45,978 nucleotides of DNA from Kaiparowitsia implicata GSE-PSE-MK54-09C. Its GTDB lineage: Bacteria > Cyanobacteriota > Cyanobacteriia > Elainellales > Elainellaceae. The notes beneath the pieces were generated by a model. The model made no database searches. It was not told the origin of the DNA and was given only the letters and a program-made list of their open reading frames with translations. Every line of letters starts with the position of its first letter. Within the stretch, counting starts at the first letter, position 1. The position numbers were made by a program, and so were the translations under genes. Of this stretch, positions 147 through 45,978 are shown piece after piece. The stretch spans positions 1-45,978 of the forward strand of contig JAHHHI010000008.1 in NCBI GenBank assembly GCA_019359435.1, given 5' to 3'.

Positions 147-1281
147 CTAATATCAATTCTCTAAACACGCGTTACACATAGAGCATCGACTATCCAATCC
201 CACTGGGTGAGCGATCGCACCAGCTGAGGGGAAAGGTCATGCACCCATAGGCTAATGGCGTGTTGCAGTTCACCCAAGTCGTCAAAGCGAGCCCAGGCGA
301 ACGCCCGTTTGAGCTCCCGCCACACGCGCTCGATTGGATTGAGCTCAGGACAATAGGGTGGCTGAAACATCCAGATGACGTGGTCGGGGATAGTTAGGCT
401 CTGAGCGGTGTGAGCGGGCACATTATCCACCTGAATCAGGTGTAAGTCATCGGGGAACTGGGCGGCAAAGCGGTGCAAAACCGCTTCAAAACATACACTG
501 TCAAGGTGAGAGCACTCCATCAGCCATGACGTGCCACTGAGGGGCTCCACCAGACCGTACAACCAACGATACACAAACTGCCACTGCACCGTACCGGTGG
601 GTTGTACCCCAAACCCCGTCACCTTACGATGCTGAACGGTCAACACTCGTGCCGACTCTCATCGCTGCACCAGTCGCGAATCCGACCCGCATCGCGCTGC
701 GGTAAGGCTGGCGTGGTCAGGTGGCGCAACTGCTGTCCAAGGTTTGCTGAAAGGACTCAACCGCCCCAGGAGTTTGCTTCTCAGACACCGGACGCGGCAC
801 TTTGAGCTGGGCTTTGAGACCATAGCGTACCGTTTTATGCACCGTTTTGTACGGCACCTGTTGGTCATACACAGCGGCTAACCACTGCTGCACCTCACCA
901 TAGCTCCGAAAGCCCTCTGGCTCTTGCAACTCTCGCTCCAATGCTGCCAGCACGTCGCCGGTAATCGCCCGGGGACGTCCGCACCTAGGCGCCACCTGCA
1001 CTAACGAGTCGAGGCCGCTGCGACGATAGTTGCTCAGCCAACGAGATACTGTCGTGCGGTGGTATCCACTCCTCTCAGCTAATGGACAGATCCCCGGGGC
1101 CTGTCCCGTCTTCAGCCACCACAACACCTAGACTTTACTGCGCTGTGAGGCCCGCTGCTGAGGAGCTAAAACTGCTTTCAGCTCCTCAGCTGTTTCGCTG
1201 ATATCGGTCTTTAGGACTCCTGACATGGGGATAGACTATAACGACTTTCTCTATAGCAAATCTTTAAAGAATTTGTATTAG
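147..1281 (-). mobile_element. IS630-type insertion sequence, inactive
   Basis: Imperfect terminal inverted repeats, matching at 16 of 19 positions, lie at 147-165 (CTAATATCAATTCTCTAAA) and, inverted, at 1263-1281. TA dinucleotides at both ends fit the TA target of the IS630/Tc1-mariner group. The element is about 1.1 kb and holds one broken transposase gene. It inserted just behind an rRNA operon terminator, a site where insertion is likely to do little harm. Confidence 0.75.
161..1226 (-). pseudogene. IS630-type transposase, broken by a stop and frameshifts
   Basis: Read on the minus strand from ATG at 1226, the gene encodes an N-terminal helix-turn-helix part (SGYHRTTVSRWL) and then the DDE endonuclease. 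The first Asp is in DWCSDESR, the second in VDNVPAH and the Glu in NPIERVW. Three lesions are visible. An in-frame TAG at 1128-1130 stands where CAG (Gln) is expected, in SKV-stop-VLWWLKTG. A frame change lies near 720-735, where the text moves from DSSCAT to LTTPALPQRDAGRIRDW. A second frame change lies near 645-655, just after the first catalytic Asp. All three frames are used, so no full protein can be made. Confidence 0.85.
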
Positions 1282-1559
1282 ACCCAACGCGCTTCGGCAG
1301 TGCTCAGTGCTTTGCCTCCTGATACGGGTTGTGCCCGGGCAGTGCGATCTCTGGAGGCAAACGTAAAATCTTGAAGACTCGTTGTGTTAGTAATTGAGCA
1401 GACATGCCTTTCGCATTGCGGCAGATGATCTGATCTAGCGATTGGAGTCTTCTTTCGACAGCTAAAAGTCCGCTTGAGGGCATCCAAAGTCATTACTGCT
1501 ATTACTCGCAAGCTCGCCCGCATTTTCTATCACCTGTGGAGTAGGAGTAGTCCTAACGA
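1282..1559. other. intergenic stretch without a recognised gene
   Basis: No convincing gene is seen between the IS630 copy and the next transposase fragment. A plus-strand reading near 1283-1372 (with AVLSALPPDTGCARAV) looks coding-like but has no start in view and ends at a stop near 1373. It may be gene debris cut by the insertions. Confidence 0.4.
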
Positions 1560-1948
1560 CGTACTACAGCGGCACGTGCAAGACCCATATGGTCAAGAAC
1601 CTAGTCATTCCTGAGCGTGGGGGCAAGGTGCGCTGCTTGAGTGAAACCTACAAAGGCAAGAAACATAACAAGGCGATTGCTGATAAGGAAGACTTGCAGT
1701 TTCCAGATGGCAGCACGGTATGGCAAGATAGAGGGTTTCAAGGCTTTGCCCCAGAGGGGATGAGCATTCAGCAACCGGAGAAGAAACCGCGCAACGGGTC
1801 TCTCACGCTGATTGAGAAGATCAACAATCAACGTATTTCCAGCCTTCGCGTCGAAGTGGAACACTACATTGGTGGCATCAAACGGTTGGACAATTTCCGC
1901 CTGATTCATCGAGCAAAGCAACGGAGGCCCCTGAAAGAAGCCGCTTAA
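1560..1948 (+). pseudogene. IS5-type (DDE_Tnp_4) transposase, C-terminal fragment
   Basis: The reading frame carries YYSGTCKTHMVKNLVI, DRGFQG and EVEHYIGGIKR. These are the second catalytic Asp block and the Glu block of IS5/DDE_Tnp_4 transposases. The family protein is usually 250 residues or more. The N-terminal half, including the first catalytic Asp, is absent, and the last residues (RAKQRRPLKEAA) depart from the family. An ORF can be opened at the ATG at 1589, but homology starts upstream of it, so this is a remnant. No terminal repeats were found. Confidence 0.75.
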
Positions 1949-2407
1949 GCCCAATCAACCACGAGTGAAGTTGACTTGTAGCCACTTCTCTCCTATTTTT
2001 GATAAAGTCTAATGAATCAACCCTGGTCTAACCTTAATCTGAGCCAGCAAGCTAGGTGCAAACAATTGTCCTGAACGTAACCATTCTAAAACCTTTAGAG
2101 ACGTGAGACTTAATTCCACATCAGTCTCCAATGCTGGGGAGCAGGAAGGTACAAAGAAACAAAAAGGTTGACTACCAGGGGTTTCAGCCTTATTCCTAGG
2201 TTTTTTTCTTAGGAGCGGCTGATCCAGTGCTGCGGACCGTGTTATACACGTCCAGAAACTTCAAGCTATTTTTGACTTGATCCTTCAATCTGTACCGGAG
2301 GAAGTTTCTAGAGAGTTTGGCAGACGCCTAAATCCGTGCTTCCCACAAGGTTTGCATCTATCAACAAAACGCTCACACCAAAAGGCTCAGACCTGACTTT
2401 CAAGCGT
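1949..2407. other. intergenic stretch, no gene seen
   Basis: About 460 bases lie between the transposase fragment and the thioredoxin stop codon. No ORF, tRNA or strong hairpin stands out. It probably holds decayed mobile-element sequence. Confidence 0.4.
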
Positions 2408-2743
2408 TTAAACAGACTGAGGCAAATGTTGAGACAGAAAATCCTGAATCTTAGGCTTGCCGATGACACCTTCGATCGTGTCTACTTGCTGTCCAGACTG
2501 AAATAGCACCAAAGCCGGTACGCCCTGCACATTGCACTGAGCGACTGCTTGTGGATTGGGATCAACTTCTATCTTGACGATCTTGAGGCGATCGCCGTAG
2601 TTAGAAGCAATTGTCTCCATTATGGGAGACATCAATCGACAGGGGCCGCACCAAGGAGCCCAAAAATAGATCAATACCGCCTCTGGAGTAGAGATAACTT
2701 CTGCGTCGAATTGAGGGTCTGAAATAACTGTAATGAGACTCAT
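2408..2743 (-). CDS. thioredoxin, x-type-like
   Basis: A 111-residue single-domain thioredoxin that reduces protein disulfides in the cytoplasm using the WCGPC active site (Cys32 and Cys35), with the cis-proline in GVPAL (Pro76). The start at 2743 is preferred over an upstream in-frame start at 2797 because AAGGAGA lies just ahead of it and the family begins there (MSLITVISD). The body (YFWAPWCGPCRLM, EVDPNPQAVAQC, GVPALVLF) resembles the Synechocystis Slr1139 type (TrxB, x-type) more than the m-type TrxA; that match is from memory. It reads away from the IS debris downstream and is followed by no clear terminator. Confidence 0.88.
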   Translation of the reverse strand: MSLITVISDPQFDAEVISTPEAVLIYFWAPWCGPCRLMSPIMETIASNYGDRLKIVKIEVDPNPQAVAQCNVQGVPALVLFQSGQQVDTIEGVIGKPKIQDFLSQHLPQSV

Positions 2744-2972
2744 AACTGCTGCTCTCCTTGCTGCTCTTTCCAGTCTCTCATCTATAGCGACAGCCATAGT
2801 AGGGAAGTTTAGAACATTTAGTAAAACCCTTATTTTACAAAGGATTTACCCTATTTCATACCGAATTAGCGTGCTTTTCGCAGTATGTAGGGTAGTGGTG
2901 TTGAGTAATTCCTTTGACGCAATTGCAGATTGCAATGGGATGACTTTGGCTATCGCTTGGGTTTCATACAAA

Positions 2973-3005
2973 AGTGAGCTGCTGTGCCTAGCACAGCAGC
3001 TCACT
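2973..3005 (-). terminator. perfect hairpin behind vipp1, probable terminator
   Basis: A perfect 15-bp inverted repeat (AGTGAGCTGCTGTGC) with a 3-base loop lies about 95 bases past the vipp1 stop on the minus strand. It is followed in that direction by TTTGTATG, a weak U tract. It could also be a processing or regulatory hairpin. Confidence 0.65.
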
Positions 3006-3099
3006 TCTATCTCAATCTGATGAGGTTTGACCTGGATAGGCAAGGAGCTATGTCTAGCGTAGCGATCCTGCCCAATCCATTGGTTACATTGACTCGATT

Positions 3100-3876
3100 C
3101 TACAGTTGGTCGAGCTGCGTTTTTAGCGCTTCTAGCTCATCATCGACTGAAGCATCTGTCGATGCAGCACCAGTGTCAGAGGATGCAGGCAGCGAGGTCT
3201 GCTCTGCTGTGGACAATCCACCCAGTAGTTGGGCTTTCATTGCTTCTAGCTCATCATCTACATCGGTGCCCGACTCAAGTGCAGCAAACTGACTTTCTAG
3301 ATCTGAGCCAGCTAGTTCTGCAGCAGCTTGAGAACGCGCTTCCATTTGCAGAATCTTCTCTTCCATCCGCTCAAACGCACCAGCAGCTGTACTGGTGCCC
3401 ATACGGCCCATTGTGTTTTGTAGCTGCTCGTTGGCCTTAGCTGCGCTGGCTCGCGCCCGCAGCATATCCTTCTTGGTCTTTGCTTCAGAAATTTTGCCTT
3501 CTAGCGCAATTAGGTTGCGCTTTAGAGTGTCAACAGTAGCGGATTGCTGATCGAGCTGGGTTTTCATGGCGTTGGAGGTATCCAACTGCACTTTCCTGCG
3601 GTTGAGAGCCTCTCGCGCTAGCGACTCATCCCCTTTTTGCAGCGCTAACTGCGCCCGTTGCTGCCAGTTATTAGACTCAGTTTGAGCCTGATTATATTGC
3701 TGCTGCATGCGCTTCTGGCTGGCGATCGCACTCGCAACGGCCTGTCTCAGCTGCACCAAGTCTTCCTGCATGTCAATTAAGGCTTGATCAAGAATCTTTT
3801 CTGGATCTTCAGCTGCACTCACTGCCGCATTGAGATTAGAACGAACTACCCGGCTAACTCGATCAAACAGTCCCAT
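3100..3876 (-). CDS. vipp1: Vipp1/IM30, PspA-family membrane-remodelling protein
   Basis: A 258-residue, almost wholly helical PspA/IM30 protein starting MGLFDRVSRVVRSNLNA, the amphipathic membrane-binding N-terminus. The long coiled coil spans about residues 25-215. Beyond the PspA core there is a low-complexity Ser/Ala linker and a final helix (VDDELEALKTQLDQL). That extra C-terminal helix separates Vipp1 from ordinary PspA. In cyanobacteria Vipp1 forms ESCRT-III-like rings and rods that maintain thylakoid membranes. GAGGAAAC precedes the ATG. The gene is transcribed alone or at the head of a short unit ending in the hairpin at 2973-3005. ftsH lies upstream in the same direction but behind its own terminator. 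Confidence 0.93.
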   Translation of the reverse strand: MGLFDRVSRVVRSNLNAAVSAAEDPEKILDQALIDMQEDLVQLRQAVASAIASQKRMQQQYNQAQTESNNWQQRAQLALQKGDESLAREALNRRKVQLDTSNAMKTQLDQQSATVDTLKRNLIALEGKISEAKTKKDMLRARASAAKANEQLQNTMGRMGTSTAAGAFERMEEKILQMEARSQAAAELAGSDLESQFAALESGTDVDDELEAMKAQLLGGLSTAEQTSLPASSDTGAASTDASVDDELEALKTQLDQL

Positions 3877-41863: not shown

Positions 41864-44227
41864 ATGCTCGACATTCCCAAGCTGCTGGCTCAAGAACTCT
41901 CGCTCAAGCCCGTTCAGGTAGCCAACGCGCTAGACCTGTTTGCGGAGGGAGCCACAGTGCCGTTTATTGCGCGGTATCGCAAAGAGCGCACCGGCGAACT
42001 CAACGAAACCCAACTGCGTCAGCTGAGCGATCGCCACACCTATCTCACCGAGCTAGAAGACCGTAAGCAGACTGTGGTGCGGGCGATCGCCGACCAAGGC
42101 AAGCTCACCGACACCCTGCAGCGCCAAATTGAGCAAACCCTGCTGAAGACTGAACTAGAAGACCTCTATTTGCCCTATCGCCCCAAGCGCCGCACCCGCG
42201 CCACCATTGCCCGCGAGCGGGGGCTAGAGCCCTTGGCCCAGTGGATCGAGTCGCTTAACCAACCGAATGCACCCCACGCCGATCTTGAAGCCGAAGCGGC
42301 CCGCTATCTGGATAATGAGAACGGCGTGAAGTCATCGCAGGATGCGCTGCAAGGGGCGTCAGATATTTTGGCGGAAGGCGTGGCCGATCGAGCAGCGGTG
42401 CGATCGCACCTGCGCCAGTTCTTGCTCAAATCCGGCTGCTTCACCTCCAGCATCAAAGCCAAGTTTCCCGAAGGCACCACTAAATATGAGATGTATCGGA
42501 ACTATACTGCCGGGGTGAACAGCATTCAACCCCACAACCTGCTGGCTCTGCTGCGGGGAGAGAACGACGGGGTGCTGTCGGTGGAGTTAGCCTTTGATGA
42601 GGCTGAGGTGCAGTCTTATCTAGAGGGAAACCTGCTGCGGGCAAAGGCCAAGCCCGTGCGGGCGTTTTACCAAGCCATGTTGCGGGATGCGTTTAACCGA
42701 CTAATGCGCGCCTCTCTCACGGGCGAGGTGATCGCCGAGAAAAAGCGGTGGGCCGATATCGAATCCATCACCACCTTTGAGTCCAATTTGCGGGAGCTGC
42801 TGCTGTCGCCTCCCGCTGGCATGAAGCCAACTCTAGCCATTGACCCGGGCTTTCGCACCGGCTGCAAAGTCGCCGTAATTGACCAAACGGGCCAGTTTTT
42901 GGAATATCAGGCCATTTTCCCTCATACGGGCGCAGGGCAGCGCCAAAAAGCGGCCCAAACCATGACTCACTTGATCCAAAAGTATGGCATTACTCTGATC
43001 GCCATTGGCAATGGCACCGCCAGCCGCGAAACCGATGCCTTTGTGGGCGAGGTGGTGCAGCCGCTTTCTCCCCCACTGGTCAAGGTGATGGTGAACGAAT
43101 CCGGTGCGTCGATTTATTCGGCGAGTGACGTGGCGATCGCCGAATTCCCTCATCTAGACATCACGGTTCGCGGCGCGATTAGCATTGGCCGTCGGCTGCA
43201 AGACCCCCTGGCGGAATTGGTCAAAATCGATCCCAAGTCCATTGGGGTGGGTCAATATCAGCACGATGTCGATCAAAAACTGCTGAAGAAAAAGCTGGAT
43301 GAAACGGTAGAGAGCTGCGTCAACTATGTCGGTGTGGACTTGAACACTGCGTCGAAGGAGCTGTTGAGCTACGTGTCGGGAATCTCGGCCAGCGTCGCCA
43401 ACAATATCGTGCAGTATCGCAATCAAAATGGGGCCTTTGGCGATCGCCGCGAATTAAAGAAAGTGGCGAAGCTAGGCCCCAAAGCCTTTGAGCAAGCCGC
43501 TGGGTTTTTGCGAATTCGCAATGGCCAAAATCCACTCGATAACACCGCCGTTCATCCCGAAAGCTATAAAGTTGTGGAGGCGATCGCCCACGATCTGCAC
43601 ATTCCCCTACATCAAATACATCAGACCAACCCGGATAGTGAGACAGCAGACCTGCCACTCACATCCATCGATCTCAAGCGCATTGACCTAGCGCGTTACG
43701 TTACCGACACGATCGGCGAACCCACCCTACGCGACATCCTGGCCGAGTTAGAAAAACCCGGACGCGACCCCCGCGCCCAGTTTGCCTACGCCACCTTCCG
43801 GGATGACATTCAAGACATGCGCGATCTAGAGATTGGCCTGATACTAGAAGGCGTCGTAACCAACGTGGCGAACTTTGGGGCCTTTGTGGATATTGGCGTG
43901 CATCAAGACGGGCTGGTGCATGTGTCGCAACTGGCCGATCGCTTTGTCAAAGACCCTACATACATTGTGAAAGTGGGGCAAATTGTAACAGTACGCGTGC
44001 TGGAGGTGAACGAGTCGCTCAAGCGCATCAGTCTCTCCATGCGCTCAGACTCCGCAGACAAACCCGCCCCAAATGCAGCTTCATCGACCTCCCAACCCAA
44101 TCCTTCATCCGGCACACCCTCTAGCACCCCAGCTAAACCCCAACGGTCTGCTAAGCGTGACAGGCCTGCTATCGCCGCCCCCAGCCTTGAAGATCTCAAA
44201 GCTCGATTCAATCGCGGCAAGCAATAA
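41864..44227 (+). CDS. tex: Tex family RNA-binding transcription accessory protein
   Basis: A 787-residue cytoplasmic nucleic-acid-binding protein. Order of domains: N-terminal helical region with FAEGATVPFIARYRKERTG; a YqgF/RNase H-like fold beginning TLAIDPGFRTGCKVAVI (about 322); helix-hairpin-helix motifs (about 480-570, LLSYVSGISASVANNIVQYR); and an S1 domain (about 660-728, GVVTNVANFGAFVDIG). A Pro/Ser-rich tail closes with LEDLKARFNRGKQ. Tex proteins act in transcription and RNA handling and are broadly conserved. Length is normal. No ribosome site is evident before the ATG. Confidence 0.95.
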   Translation: MLDIPKLLAQELSLKPVQVANALDLFAEGATVPFIARYRKERTGELNETQLRQLSDRHTYLTELEDRKQTVVRAIADQGKLTDTLQRQIEQTLLKTELEDLYLPYRPKRRTRATIARERGLEPLAQWIESLNQPNAPHADLEAEAARYLDNENGVKSSQDALQGASDILAEGVADRAAVRSHLRQFLLKSGCFTSSIKAKFPEGTTKYEMYRNYTAGVNSIQPHNLLALLRGENDGVLSVELAFDEAEVQSYLEGNLLRAKAKPVRAFYQAMLRDAFNRLMRASLTGEVIAEKKRWADIESITTFESNLRELLLSPPAGMKPTLAIDPGFRTGCKVAVIDQTGQFLEYQAIFPHTGAGQRQKAAQTMTHLIQKYGITLIAIGNGTASRETDAFVGEVVQPLSPPLVKVMVNESGASIYSASDVAIAEFPHLDITVRGAISIGRRLQDPLAELVKIDPKSIGVGQYQHDVDQKLLKKKLDETVESCVNYVGVDLNTASKELLSYVSGISASVANNIVQYRNQNGAFGDRRELKKVAKLGPKAFEQAAGFLRIRNGQNPLDNTAVHPESYKVVEAIAHDLHIPLHQIHQTNPDSETADLPLTSIDLKRIDLARYVTDTIGEPTLRDILAELEKPGRDPRAQFAYATFRDDIQDMRDLEIGLILEGVVTNVANFGAFVDIGVHQDGLVHVSQLADRFVKDPTYIVKVGQIVTVRVLEVNESLKRISLSMRSDSADKPAPNAASSTSQPNPSSGTPSSTPAKPQRSAKRDRPAIAAPSLEDLKARFNRGKQ

Positions 44228-44266
44228 AGCCATGTCGATAGGCAGTCAGGGTATAAACCCTTGCAG

Positions 44267-44355
44267 AACGTGAGTTCGGGTTAGAAGGGTTTTTGGGGCA
44301 CCACGAAACGCGCAGCACCCTTAAAACTAATGTGCCACGTGCATTGCGCGCGGCC
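44267..44355 (+). mobile_element. degenerate family 2 end, probable left end of the IS4-like element
   Basis: AACGTGAGTTCGGGTTAGAA continues into GGGTTTTTGGGGCA, as in the MITE at 44609-44730, and a later ATGTGCCACGTGC matches its second hairpin. The hairpins themselves are decayed. It lies 80-170 bases upstream of an IS4-like transposase start, so it may be that element's terminal region or an older MITE copy. Confidence 0.6.
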
Positions 44356-44434
44356 TTAACGGGTGACAGGGGAAGTCAAAGTCATGCGGCACAGGGTTTT
44401 GAGACAATAGAGGGGACAAAAAAAGGGAACCTCA

Positions 44435-44928
44435 ATGCAGCTCCCCCAAACCAATATGTTTCCCGCGTTCTACCAAACTACCCTTCGTGCCCATCTCAGT
44501 GAAACCCAGTATTTGACTTTGGCGCTGTTGGTGCTATTGCTACAGGCTCATCGTCAAGTCACACTCTCGGCGTTAGCCAGTGTCTTTCACCAGCCGATTC
44601 AGTATCAAACGTCAGTTCGGGTTAAGAGGGTTTTGGGGCATCGCGCGACGCGCGATGCCCCAAAACCCTTAATGTGCCGTGCGCGTCGCGCACGGCACAT
44701 TAAGGGTTTGAGCTTATCCCGAACTCAGGTTATCAAAGTTGACAGCGCAACGTGCAGCGTTTTTTAGCCTTGCCATATCTCACCCTGAAGCTGCTGTGGT
44801 TTCTACTGCTCAAATACTGGATTCGACAAGTGCAAACCGGACGGGGGTTGAATCGTCACCAACTGCGGCTTAGCCACCTTCCGCGCCATAGTGAAGCAGG
44901 TCGGTTGGCGTTTGCCATAGGATGCTGA
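44435..44928 (+). pseudogene. IS4-like transposase, interrupted and truncated
   Basis: The first 58 codons (44435-44608) read MQLPQTNMFPAFYQTTLRAH, then QYLTLALLVLLLQAHRQVTL and SVFHQPIQYQ, the start of a cyanobacterial IS4-type transposase. A family 2 MITE follows at 44609-44730. Skipping it and one TATCAA copy, the same frame goes on from 44737 (NVQRFLALPYLTLKLLWF, LLLKYWIRQVQTGRGLN) to a stop at 44926-44928. One TGA at 44740-44742 stands where CGA (Arg) is expected. The catalytic DDE region is not present after that, so the gene was also truncated. AAGGGAACC precedes the ATG. Confidence 0.82.
44609..44730 (+). mobile_element. MITE family 2, full copy (122 bp) inside a transposase gene
   Basis: The ends are ACGTCAGTTCGGGTTAAGAG and, inverted, ACCTGAGTTCGGGATAAGC. 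TATCAA flanks both sides (44603-44608, 44731-44736) as a target duplication. Two near-perfect hairpins fill the interior: a stem of about 19 bp on AGGGTTTTGGGGCATCGCG and one of 16 bp on TTAATGTGCCGTGCGC. No ORF of its own. Its ends match the region ahead of the interrupted transposase (44267), so it is probably mobilised by that element family. Confidence 0.88.
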
Positions 44929-44996
44929 GAATTTGAATGGACGCTTTCGCTGTATGACCTACGGTGCAACCTGCTCCATCGCCCCGTCAAGATCGA

Positions 44997-45025
44997 TTTT
45001 GGATCAGGAAATAACTGATCCAAAA
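44997..45025. repeat. perfect 11-bp inverted repeat
   Basis: TTTTGGATCAG, a 7-base loop and CTGATCCAAAA. It lies between the IS4-like remnant and the double-glycine peptide gene. It could terminate read-through from the IS side, since it ends in AAAA/TTTT on both strands. Confidence 0.6.
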
Positions 45026-45121
45026 CTGATCCAGTGCTGATCTTTCGTCGCTGGGTGAATTCGGCCACACTTCAGGAGTACGCAACGTACACCGTTTCTT
45101 CAACACACCAAGAGACAACCC

Positions 45122-45256
45122 ATGAACCAGCAAATTCAGGCCCAACCTGCGACGAATAAACGATCCCAGCCCTCGGCCACCGAGAATTACCCCGAACTCA
45201 GCGATGCTGAGCTAGACGTGATCTGCGGCGGCAACCTTATAGGAAGAAAGCGGTAG
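45122..45256 (+). CDS. double-glycine leader peptide, bacteriocin/RiPP precursor-like
   Basis: A 44-residue peptide: a polar head (MNQQIQAQPATNKRSQPS), then ELSDAELDVICGG, then a short basic end NLIGRKR. LSxxELxxxxGG is the double-glycine leader motif recognised by peptidase-containing ABC exporters (C39 type). Such leaders precede bacteriocins, microcins and many peptide natural products. AAGAGA lies about eight bases ahead of the ATG. The seven-residue core after GG is very short, so the gene may be truncated or the peptide may act in signalling. No exporter or modifying enzyme is in the window, though the next genes downstream are not visible. Confidence 0.6.
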   Translation: MNQQIQAQPATNKRSQPSATENYPELSDAELDVICGGNLIGRKR

Positions 45257-45978
45257 TCAAGGGGAATCCGGCCACGATCACTAGGGTGCAAACGCCCTGG
45301 CTCGTCGCAAAAGTCTGCTTTAGCAGACTGAGGAACTTGCCTACTAATCCTTCTCAGAGGATTGCTGCTATGAGCCTGGGATTTCCAGTCCTTCTAGTTC
45401 CAGAGCAAGCGGCCAATCTAAGAGATCACCCCCTTAAATCCGCTCCACCTTGACAAGGGTGGGAAAAGGCAGACCCACCGGGGTATTAAGCGACAGCCCA
45501 ACGGGCTTGACCTAACGCTTAGTGATCCCAAACCTATGAGAACAATGAACCATTCCAGAGAGATTCGCTATTCGAGCAGCCCTTAGTCACCAGCGCTGGA
45601 GCGCATTTTGTTACAGCAGCAGTGGTTTGCCCTCCCATCCACGGCTTGGTGTGCTACGCCTCCACCAATCGCGTCACGCAGGCCCCACCGCCGCATTTAG
45701 TTGACTCTTAGGGCGCTAGCTCGGTTGCCCGCTTCCCCGTCGGCTACTAATTTTCCCCCTGGGCTGAACTAACGGTCGCAGAGCTCGCCGACTTAGAGCA
45801 GCGGAGGCAGAGCAATGTGCTCATGCAACGGTTCAACCCGTTTCTAGACAATAGAGCTGTTGGGGAATAACTGAAAGAACTACCCTCGCTGGCAGTGGTT
45901 CTGTTTTGGTGCTGGTCTCAAGCGGCCATCAGGTAGAAGTTCCATAATCCAGCGGCGGTGAGCATCAGGTGGTCATCG
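45257..45978. other. right end of window, no intact gene seen
   Basis: Two stem-loops occur: GTCTGCTTTAGCAGAC near 45311-45326 and CTGAGG/CCTTCTCAG near 45328-45357. Plus-strand pieces look like decayed coding sequence, for example a frame from about 45771 to a stop near 45870 with LTVAELADLEQRRQSN and MQRFNPFLDNRAVGE. No family was recognised. Confidence 0.4.

Follow-up and report, generated by a model that had tools for sequence, protein, structure and literature searches.

A very short double-glycine leader precursor gene in Kaiparowitsia implicata, the probable relic of a putative lipopeptide cluster

Results

The precursor gene and its surroundings

The window, i.e., the whole stretch of DNA that was analysed, is contig C8 in full (45,978 bases) from an assembly of 6.72 Mb in 109 contigs. 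The features discussed here lie at its right-hand end and at the start of contig C43:

44986-45121, + strand: upstream stretch in which CTGATC(C/T) boxes recur, a possible promoter or regulatory region
45122-45256, + strand: GG-leader precursor gene with an ATG start and 44 codons, frame intact
45122-45232, + strand: leader part of 37 residues, ending ELSDAELDVICGG, aligned to eight other precursors
45233-45253, + strand: core peptide NLIGRKR, the identical seven residues being found in genome G037
45257-45410, + strand: dispersed intergenic repeat with short hairpins, present at three other places in the genome (L003, L004, L005)
45545-45856, + strand: 5' part of a GNAT acyltransferase pseudogene, start codon kept, with stops and frameshifts
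45857-45978, - strand: end of an insertion sequence (IS), with a terminal repeat at 45857-45870 and the end of a transposase-like frame
L038:1-120 (contig C43): other end of the IS, with the remaining GNAT pseudogene at about 121-340

The original prediction, a double-glycine (GG) leader in a 44-residue frame with the tail NLIGRKR, was borne out by its fit to the consensus, by surrogate sequences and by a homologue in G037. The encoded precursor of 44 residues reads MNQQIQAQPATNKRSQPSATENYPELSDAELDVICGG followed by the seven-residue tail NLIGRKR after GG, and the leader end ELSDAELDVICGG matches the GG consensus ELX3E(I/L)X2(I/V)XG(G/A), as quoted in the available text of PMC3140520. A strict motif pattern, composed with the window sequence already known, had a single match across all six frames of the window and no match in any of 200 first-order Markov surrogates; a looser pattern, which does not match the site at 45122-45256, was absent from the window and averaged 0.075 per surrogate. 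The ribosome site described as plausible is present but weaker than stated, with AAGAGA in the window vs. AAGGAG in G037 (judged by eye). No NCBIfam or Pfam family matched the window peptide over its cut-off, and the model of CTB family bacteriocins (NF038167) reached 14 bits against a cut-off of 32, with only the leader covered. The observation is confirmed: positions 45122-45256 encode a true GG-leader precursor, predicted from its sequence to be cleaved and exported as a very short peptide.

Upstream of the gene, positions 44930-45121 share 152 of 181 aligned bases with the region upstream of the G037 homologue. The CTGATC(C/T) pattern is also found on contig C65, upstream of a precursor relic (L007:3040-3200) and of a DUF4347 gene (L007:5835-6020), and TGATC boxes are kept among the four copies. 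Taken alone, the box pair in the window is not above chance (2 seen, 0.85 expected). Possibly the CTGATC(C/T) region serves as regulatory sequence common to these genes. In G037, a DUF4347 gene likewise comes after the exporter. The C65 relic is a degenerate second copy of the precursor and its upstream region (L007:3196-3315), in which ACG replaces ATG and two TAG stops occur; it is the older copy. The repeat at 45257-45410 is probably not part of the peptide system. It was considered as an RNA element and rejected on account of its other copies in the genome, its unrelated neighbour genes (those beside two copies were examined) and its unremarkable fold (z -1.8). Rfam gave four matches over 44200-45978, all far under gathering scores. 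To the left, an apparent transposase remnant (44435-44767) is split by a long imperfect inverted repeat at about 44605-44735, as seen by eye.

An intact homologue and the decay of the cluster in this genome

Genome G037, which belongs to another family of the same class, carries an intact full-length homologue of the precursor (79% identity, E 3.7e-14) whose tail after CGG is GNLIGRKR, i.e., the window tail plus one glycine. Because this intact homologue has the same tail, the seven residues in the window are not a truncation, and the suggestion of a truncated bacteriocin is not upheld. Between the two precursor genes there are 7 synonymous changes over 28.3 sites (pS 0.25) and 9 non-synonymous changes over 97.7 sites (pN 0.09), the counts being small. 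Indels within the frame are of 6 and 3 bases only, and those outside the frame include 1, 4, 8, 11 and 16 bases. The core and its stop codon are the same at 22 of 23 aligned bases; measured against the 79% of the GNAT remnant this has a binomial chance of 0.03, so that the conservation is only a hint.

The GNAT pseudogene downstream differs from its G037 counterpart by a 351-base gap, premature stops and further gaps of 1, 1, 4 and 8 bases. Compared with the G037 GNAT, the remnants are 61% and 51% identical on C8 and 53% and 77% identical on C43, with stops in three of the four. The 14-bp terminal repeat of the IS, CTGTTGGGGAATAA, starts at 45857, in agreement with the predicted setting among IS debris, and an inverted copy occupies bases 107-120 of C43; GNAT similarity picks up directly after the IS repeat on C43. 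Short minus-strand frames at either contig end are transposase-like and presumably resemble IS5-type transposase. The join of C8 to C43 is based on the IS ends and the order of the GNAT parts, not on reads.

Beyond the GNAT remnant, C43 holds a 923-aa frame (405-3176) that shares 79% identity with the RTX-like protein of G037 over its 249 C-terminal residues. The presence of this RTX-like region downstream in both genomes supports synteny with loss of the exporter: between the GNAT remnant and the RTX-like frame on C43 there is neither an exporter nor a DUF4347 gene. No C39-peptidase ABC exporter lies beside the precursor on C8 or on the C43 continuation, and the latter has no LanM among its ORFs of at least 80 aa, so that the proposed rightward check for these enzymes gave neither. 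The gene had been suggested as the first of a cluster lying beyond the window. In relatives the precursor does belong to a cluster with a C39 exporter, but here no intact cluster follows, C43 carrying the broken rest of the GNAT gene and then the RTX-like gene. An exporter is present in the genome in so far as four Peptidase_C39 hits exceed the cut-off, but the top match to the G037 exporter in the whole genome is only 33% identical (all 124 candidates scored); the exporter profile at 1e-190 had no match in this genome (2 of 150 candidates scored). On contig C109, three frames resembling CTB-like GG precursors by eye (L092:2280-3150) lie about 3 kb from a C39 exporter (L092:6292-9069). Gene order, homology, decay and the absence of the cognate exporter from the assembly were computed. 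The window gene is very probably a relic: of a three-gene cluster that has broken down, it alone has stayed intact.

Intact three-gene clusters in relatives

The genes that follow the G037 precursor on the same strand encode a 324-aa GNAT, a 722-aa exporter in which Peptidase_C39, ABC membrane and ATPase domains are recognised, a DUF4347 protein and an FG-GAP/RTX-like protein of 968 aa. The order precursor, GNAT (307 aa) and exporter (715 aa) recurs on one strand in G117; G599 has the same three genes on one strand (GNAT 318 aa, exporter 721 aa), with an opposite-strand ORF between GNAT and exporter. G230 has a pair of precursors together with a GNAT and an exporter (716 aa) in divergent orientation, and G562 a pair of precursors and an exporter, with no GNAT on its 7.6-kb contig. 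Homologous leaders, which the original prediction had proposed to look for, thus occur in G037, G117, G230, G599 and G562, adjoined in each by a C39-peptidase ABC exporter. No LanM or radical SAM was seen by eye beside the precursor in the stretches listed of G037, G117, G230 and G599.

Eight of nine aligned precursors share the leader end Y-x-E-L-(S/N)-D-x-(E/Q)-L-(E/D)-x-(V/I)-C-G-G; the ninth, a Microcoleus plasmid copy, ends in SGG. Their cores span 7 to 34 residues and are dissimilar except for the pair from G000 and G037. The degenerate C65 copy was excluded from the alignments, as was G508 (E 6.7e-4), whose longer precursor of 129 aa is NHLP-like by eye. Profile searches with the precursor matched 4 of 388 genomes of the class (G000, G037, G117, G230) and 5 of 340 in the order of G117 (G117, G230, G508, G562, G599); precursor searches also matched 2 of 27 genomes in the family of G562 and 1 of 4 in the order of G037. 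These genome samples overlap and repeat genomes already found. Among 60 relatives searched at E up to 1, 14 matched, all but G000 and G037 weakly (E at least 0.12). Scans of genome contigs gave 118 pattern matches with the precursor alignment and 9 matches with the GNAT, among which no relatives were confirmed.

Five exporters of the relatives are 58-64% identical to that of G037. When the class was searched with the exporter profile, G230, G117 and G037 each scored above 1350 bits and the next match 991, a gap that is partly built in because these three helped to make the profile. The exporter family is broad, with matches at 1e-190 in 103 of 388 class genomes. On plasmids it was found in 507 of 72,556 records at 1e-60, every one below 60% identity, and in phages in 4 of 50,697 records (26.7-29.2%). 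The GNAT matched 10 of the 72,556 plasmid records, of which Microcoleus vaginatus PCC 9802 (CP146623.1) was examined; plasmid matches to the cluster proteins include Microcoleus, Nostoc and Calothrix. CP146623.1 carries an unannotated cluster (L088:547-6846, labels by eye) with a short GG precursor of core KGGRGGRGTTLPVAIVVVPLK, one radical-SAM-like and one epimerase-like gene, an exporter, and a GNAT that is split over two frames in the deposited sequence.

In all eight distinct cores the last lysine stands within five residues of the C-terminus, with 0-4 residues after it (the G000 and G037 cores counted once, in the 8-residue form). When residues were shuffled within cores in 50,000 trials, the pattern was reproduced in a fraction of 3.2e-4 and the summed distance in one of 8e-5; these figures apply to a pattern spotted before testing, i.e., post hoc, in precursors that are related. 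The window core contains lysine, itself a common residue, and the Microcoleus core also begins with one.

The GNAT family and its genomic context

In the G037 GNAT, the Pfam model Acetyltransf_1 covers residues 36-123, and a second GNAT match, below threshold, spans 225-276; a nine-sequence profile matched solved GNAT structures for the N-terminal half only. A search for the family at 1e-25 found 14 of 388 class genomes. ORFs were listed around the GNAT in 14 regions (13 genomes) besides G037, and seven of these regions hold RiPP-like genes beside it, according to labels from reading translations. Short GG precursors occur in G117 and G230 and several Nif11-like precursors in G104; by eye, a LanM-like protein lies beside the GNAT in G338, G344 and G189 C44, and G338 also has an NHLP-like precursor and G344 a Nif11-like one. 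The neighbour in G142 is a Nif11-like frame that lacks GG. GNAT homology spans the full length in G104, G338, G142, G344 and G189 C44.

By eye, the other seven regions (G252, G189 C25, G212, G241, G384, G143, G219) show no RiPP gene near the GNAT among ORFs of at least 70 aa, a lower limit at which short precursors would be missed. All seven matched less well than the top GNAT in each of the RiPP-linked regions, and in four of the seven the GNAT is fused behind other sequence. The fused GNATs (L069:7182-9077, L070:7738-9810, L071:3747-5810, L072:7213-9342) have no RiPP precursor of at least 70 aa seen nearby; in three of them the sequence ahead of the GNAT is perhaps TIGR03032-like, judging by eye and by plasmid annotations.

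Discussion

The closest described systems are the selidamides, side-chain acylated RiPPs whose GG cleavage is ascribed to the PhaT transporter in the available text of PMC9505594. According to the accessible part of the nostolysamide preprint (PMC13060382), NpuN is a tandem GNAT with a P-loop in its N-terminal half that acylates Lys1, not Lys24, of the 25-residue core of a Nif11-leader peptide; it also takes acetyl-CoA in vitro and was judged unlikely to be a self-resistance enzyme. Related GNATs are described there as neighbours of NHLP or Nif11 precursors and, mostly, of an ABC transporter; a lanthionine synthetase is not always present. The system described here resembles the selidamides (nostolysamide, npuA/M/N/T; phaeornamide; kamptornamide) in its occurrence in cyanobacteria, in a lysine in the core, in a GNAT that is probably two-halved, in a GG-leader RiPP precursor and in the adjoining C39-peptidase ABC exporter. 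The likeness of the GNAT to NpuN and PhaN rests on descriptions, not on direct sequence comparison. The GNAT gene is intact beside the precursor in G037, G117, G230 and G599; the window has it as a pseudogene only, and the exporter is absent there as well.

Unlike in selidamides, the leaders measure 28-37 residues and show no Nif11 or NHLP match, the cores go down to 7-9 residues, and no LanM was seen in the minimal clusters. Among the nine precursors, no Pfam or NCBIfam model of a Nif11/nitrile-hydratase-like leader matched at E up to 0.01; NF038167 matched three (best E 6.4e-4), TIGR03893 one and Pfam ComC one (best E 0.0014). The leader is accordingly weakly similar to that of CTB family bacteriocins (NF038167), although the window peptide stays under the curated cut-off. 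Cyanobacterial GG-precursor bacteriocin clusters of groups I-VII (Wang et al. 2011, PMC3140520) share the GG consensus and a short-type C39 ABC exporter; in the text available, none of these groups is defined by a GNAT, unlike the present system, and the terms acetyltransferase, acyltransferase and GNAT are absent from the main text. A short leader of neither Nif11 nor NHLP type combined with a GNAT but no LanM is not described in the available text of PMC13060382, PMC9505594, PMC12703449 and PMC3140520.

These comparisons suggest a system of precursor, tandem GNAT acyltransferase and C39-peptidase ABC exporter, of which the window would hold a broken copy. On this reading, the intact relatives would produce a precursor whose leader has about 28-37 residues; the GNAT would take a fatty acyl group from acyl-CoA or acyl-ACP and attach it to the side chain of a core lysine, most likely that near the C-terminus, and the exporter, through its C39 domain, would cleave behind GG and release a small lipopeptide. 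In the branch of the window gene the product would be of 7-8 residues and strongly basic; the calculated [M+H]+ of NLIGRKR is 856.55, or 1094.78 when it carries C16:0. Given the RiPP genes in the neighbourhood and the likeness to NpuN, a lysine-bound lipid is what we would most readily assume for the intact relatives. The choice of Lys1 over Lys24 by NpuN argues against a C-terminal site if the analogy is taken literally. Also weighing against the lipopeptide reading are the seven GNAT regions in which no RiPP gene was seen by eye among ORFs of at least 70 aa, the lack of a GNAT on the 7.6-kb contig of G562 and the breadth of the exporter family. By comparison with the selidamides, the intact relatives likely make lipidated peptides; their leader cleavage, acylation, export and biological role are inferred. 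By the same analogy, the window gene would belong, as a dead copy, to a minimal lipopeptide system of selidamide-like kind whose short leaders are of neither Nif11 nor NHLP type. No such product is to be expected in the present genome, given that an IS interrupts the GNAT pseudogene and that the assembly yielded no cognate exporter.

The same relic cluster could be read with the GNAT as a self-immunity or detoxifying acetyltransferase, or one of plain acetylation, and with an unlipidated short bacteriocin or signal as the product. In its favour, the best solved-structure matches of the GNAT profile are small acetyltransferases (e.g., NAA60, YpeA), models of RimI and aminoglycoside acetyltransferases match, albeit under their cut-offs, and NpuN itself accepts acetyl-CoA in vitro. 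However, full-length members of the family adjoin LanM-like and Nif11-like genes, the context of selidamide enzymes, and the judgement in the available text of PMC13060382 that NpuN is unlikely to serve self-resistance bears on this point too; we regard the acetyltransferase reading as unlikely. Somewhat less likely still is that the precursor remains expressed and leaves the cell as an orphan peptide through another C39 exporter of the genome. Its intact frame with pN below pS against G037 would fit, as would the four Peptidase_C39 hits, one of them near the three GG-precursor-like frames seen by eye, but the top exporter identity of 33% does not, nor do a ribosome site weaker than that of G037, a C65 copy without start and with two stops, and the decay of the neighbouring GNAT; moreover, a frame of 44 codons easily stays intact if decay is recent. 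A leader that is merely a chance frame in IS debris was ruled out by the homologues and can practically be dismissed: the ORF is short and sits at a contig end among repeats, yet its homologues keep motif, position and neighbours, and no surrogate produced the motif.

We therefore favour, with moderate confidence, the reading of the window gene as the intact precursor of a broken three-gene lipopeptide system. More tentatively, and as a possibility on which we would not insist, the intact relatives may represent a minimal ribosomal lipopeptide system of three genes, in which a precursor with a short CGG-type leader is served by a tandem GNAT and a C39 exporter. Its peptides would have 7-34 residues and an acyl group on a lysine close to the C-terminus; at 7-8 residues, the cationic (G)NLIGRKR would be the smallest of them, and the window would hold a dead copy of that branch.

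The window itself has a modest part in this: its decayed locus shows how such clusters vanish, with the precursor frame outlasting the enzymes. If the reading of the relatives is true, a lipopeptide would arise from a gene of less than 140 bases, one modifying enzyme and one exporter, without need for the ring-forming enzymes of the selidamides as described in the available literature. Such clusters would offer a small test system for how a GNAT chooses its lysine and for the minimum length of a RiPP core.
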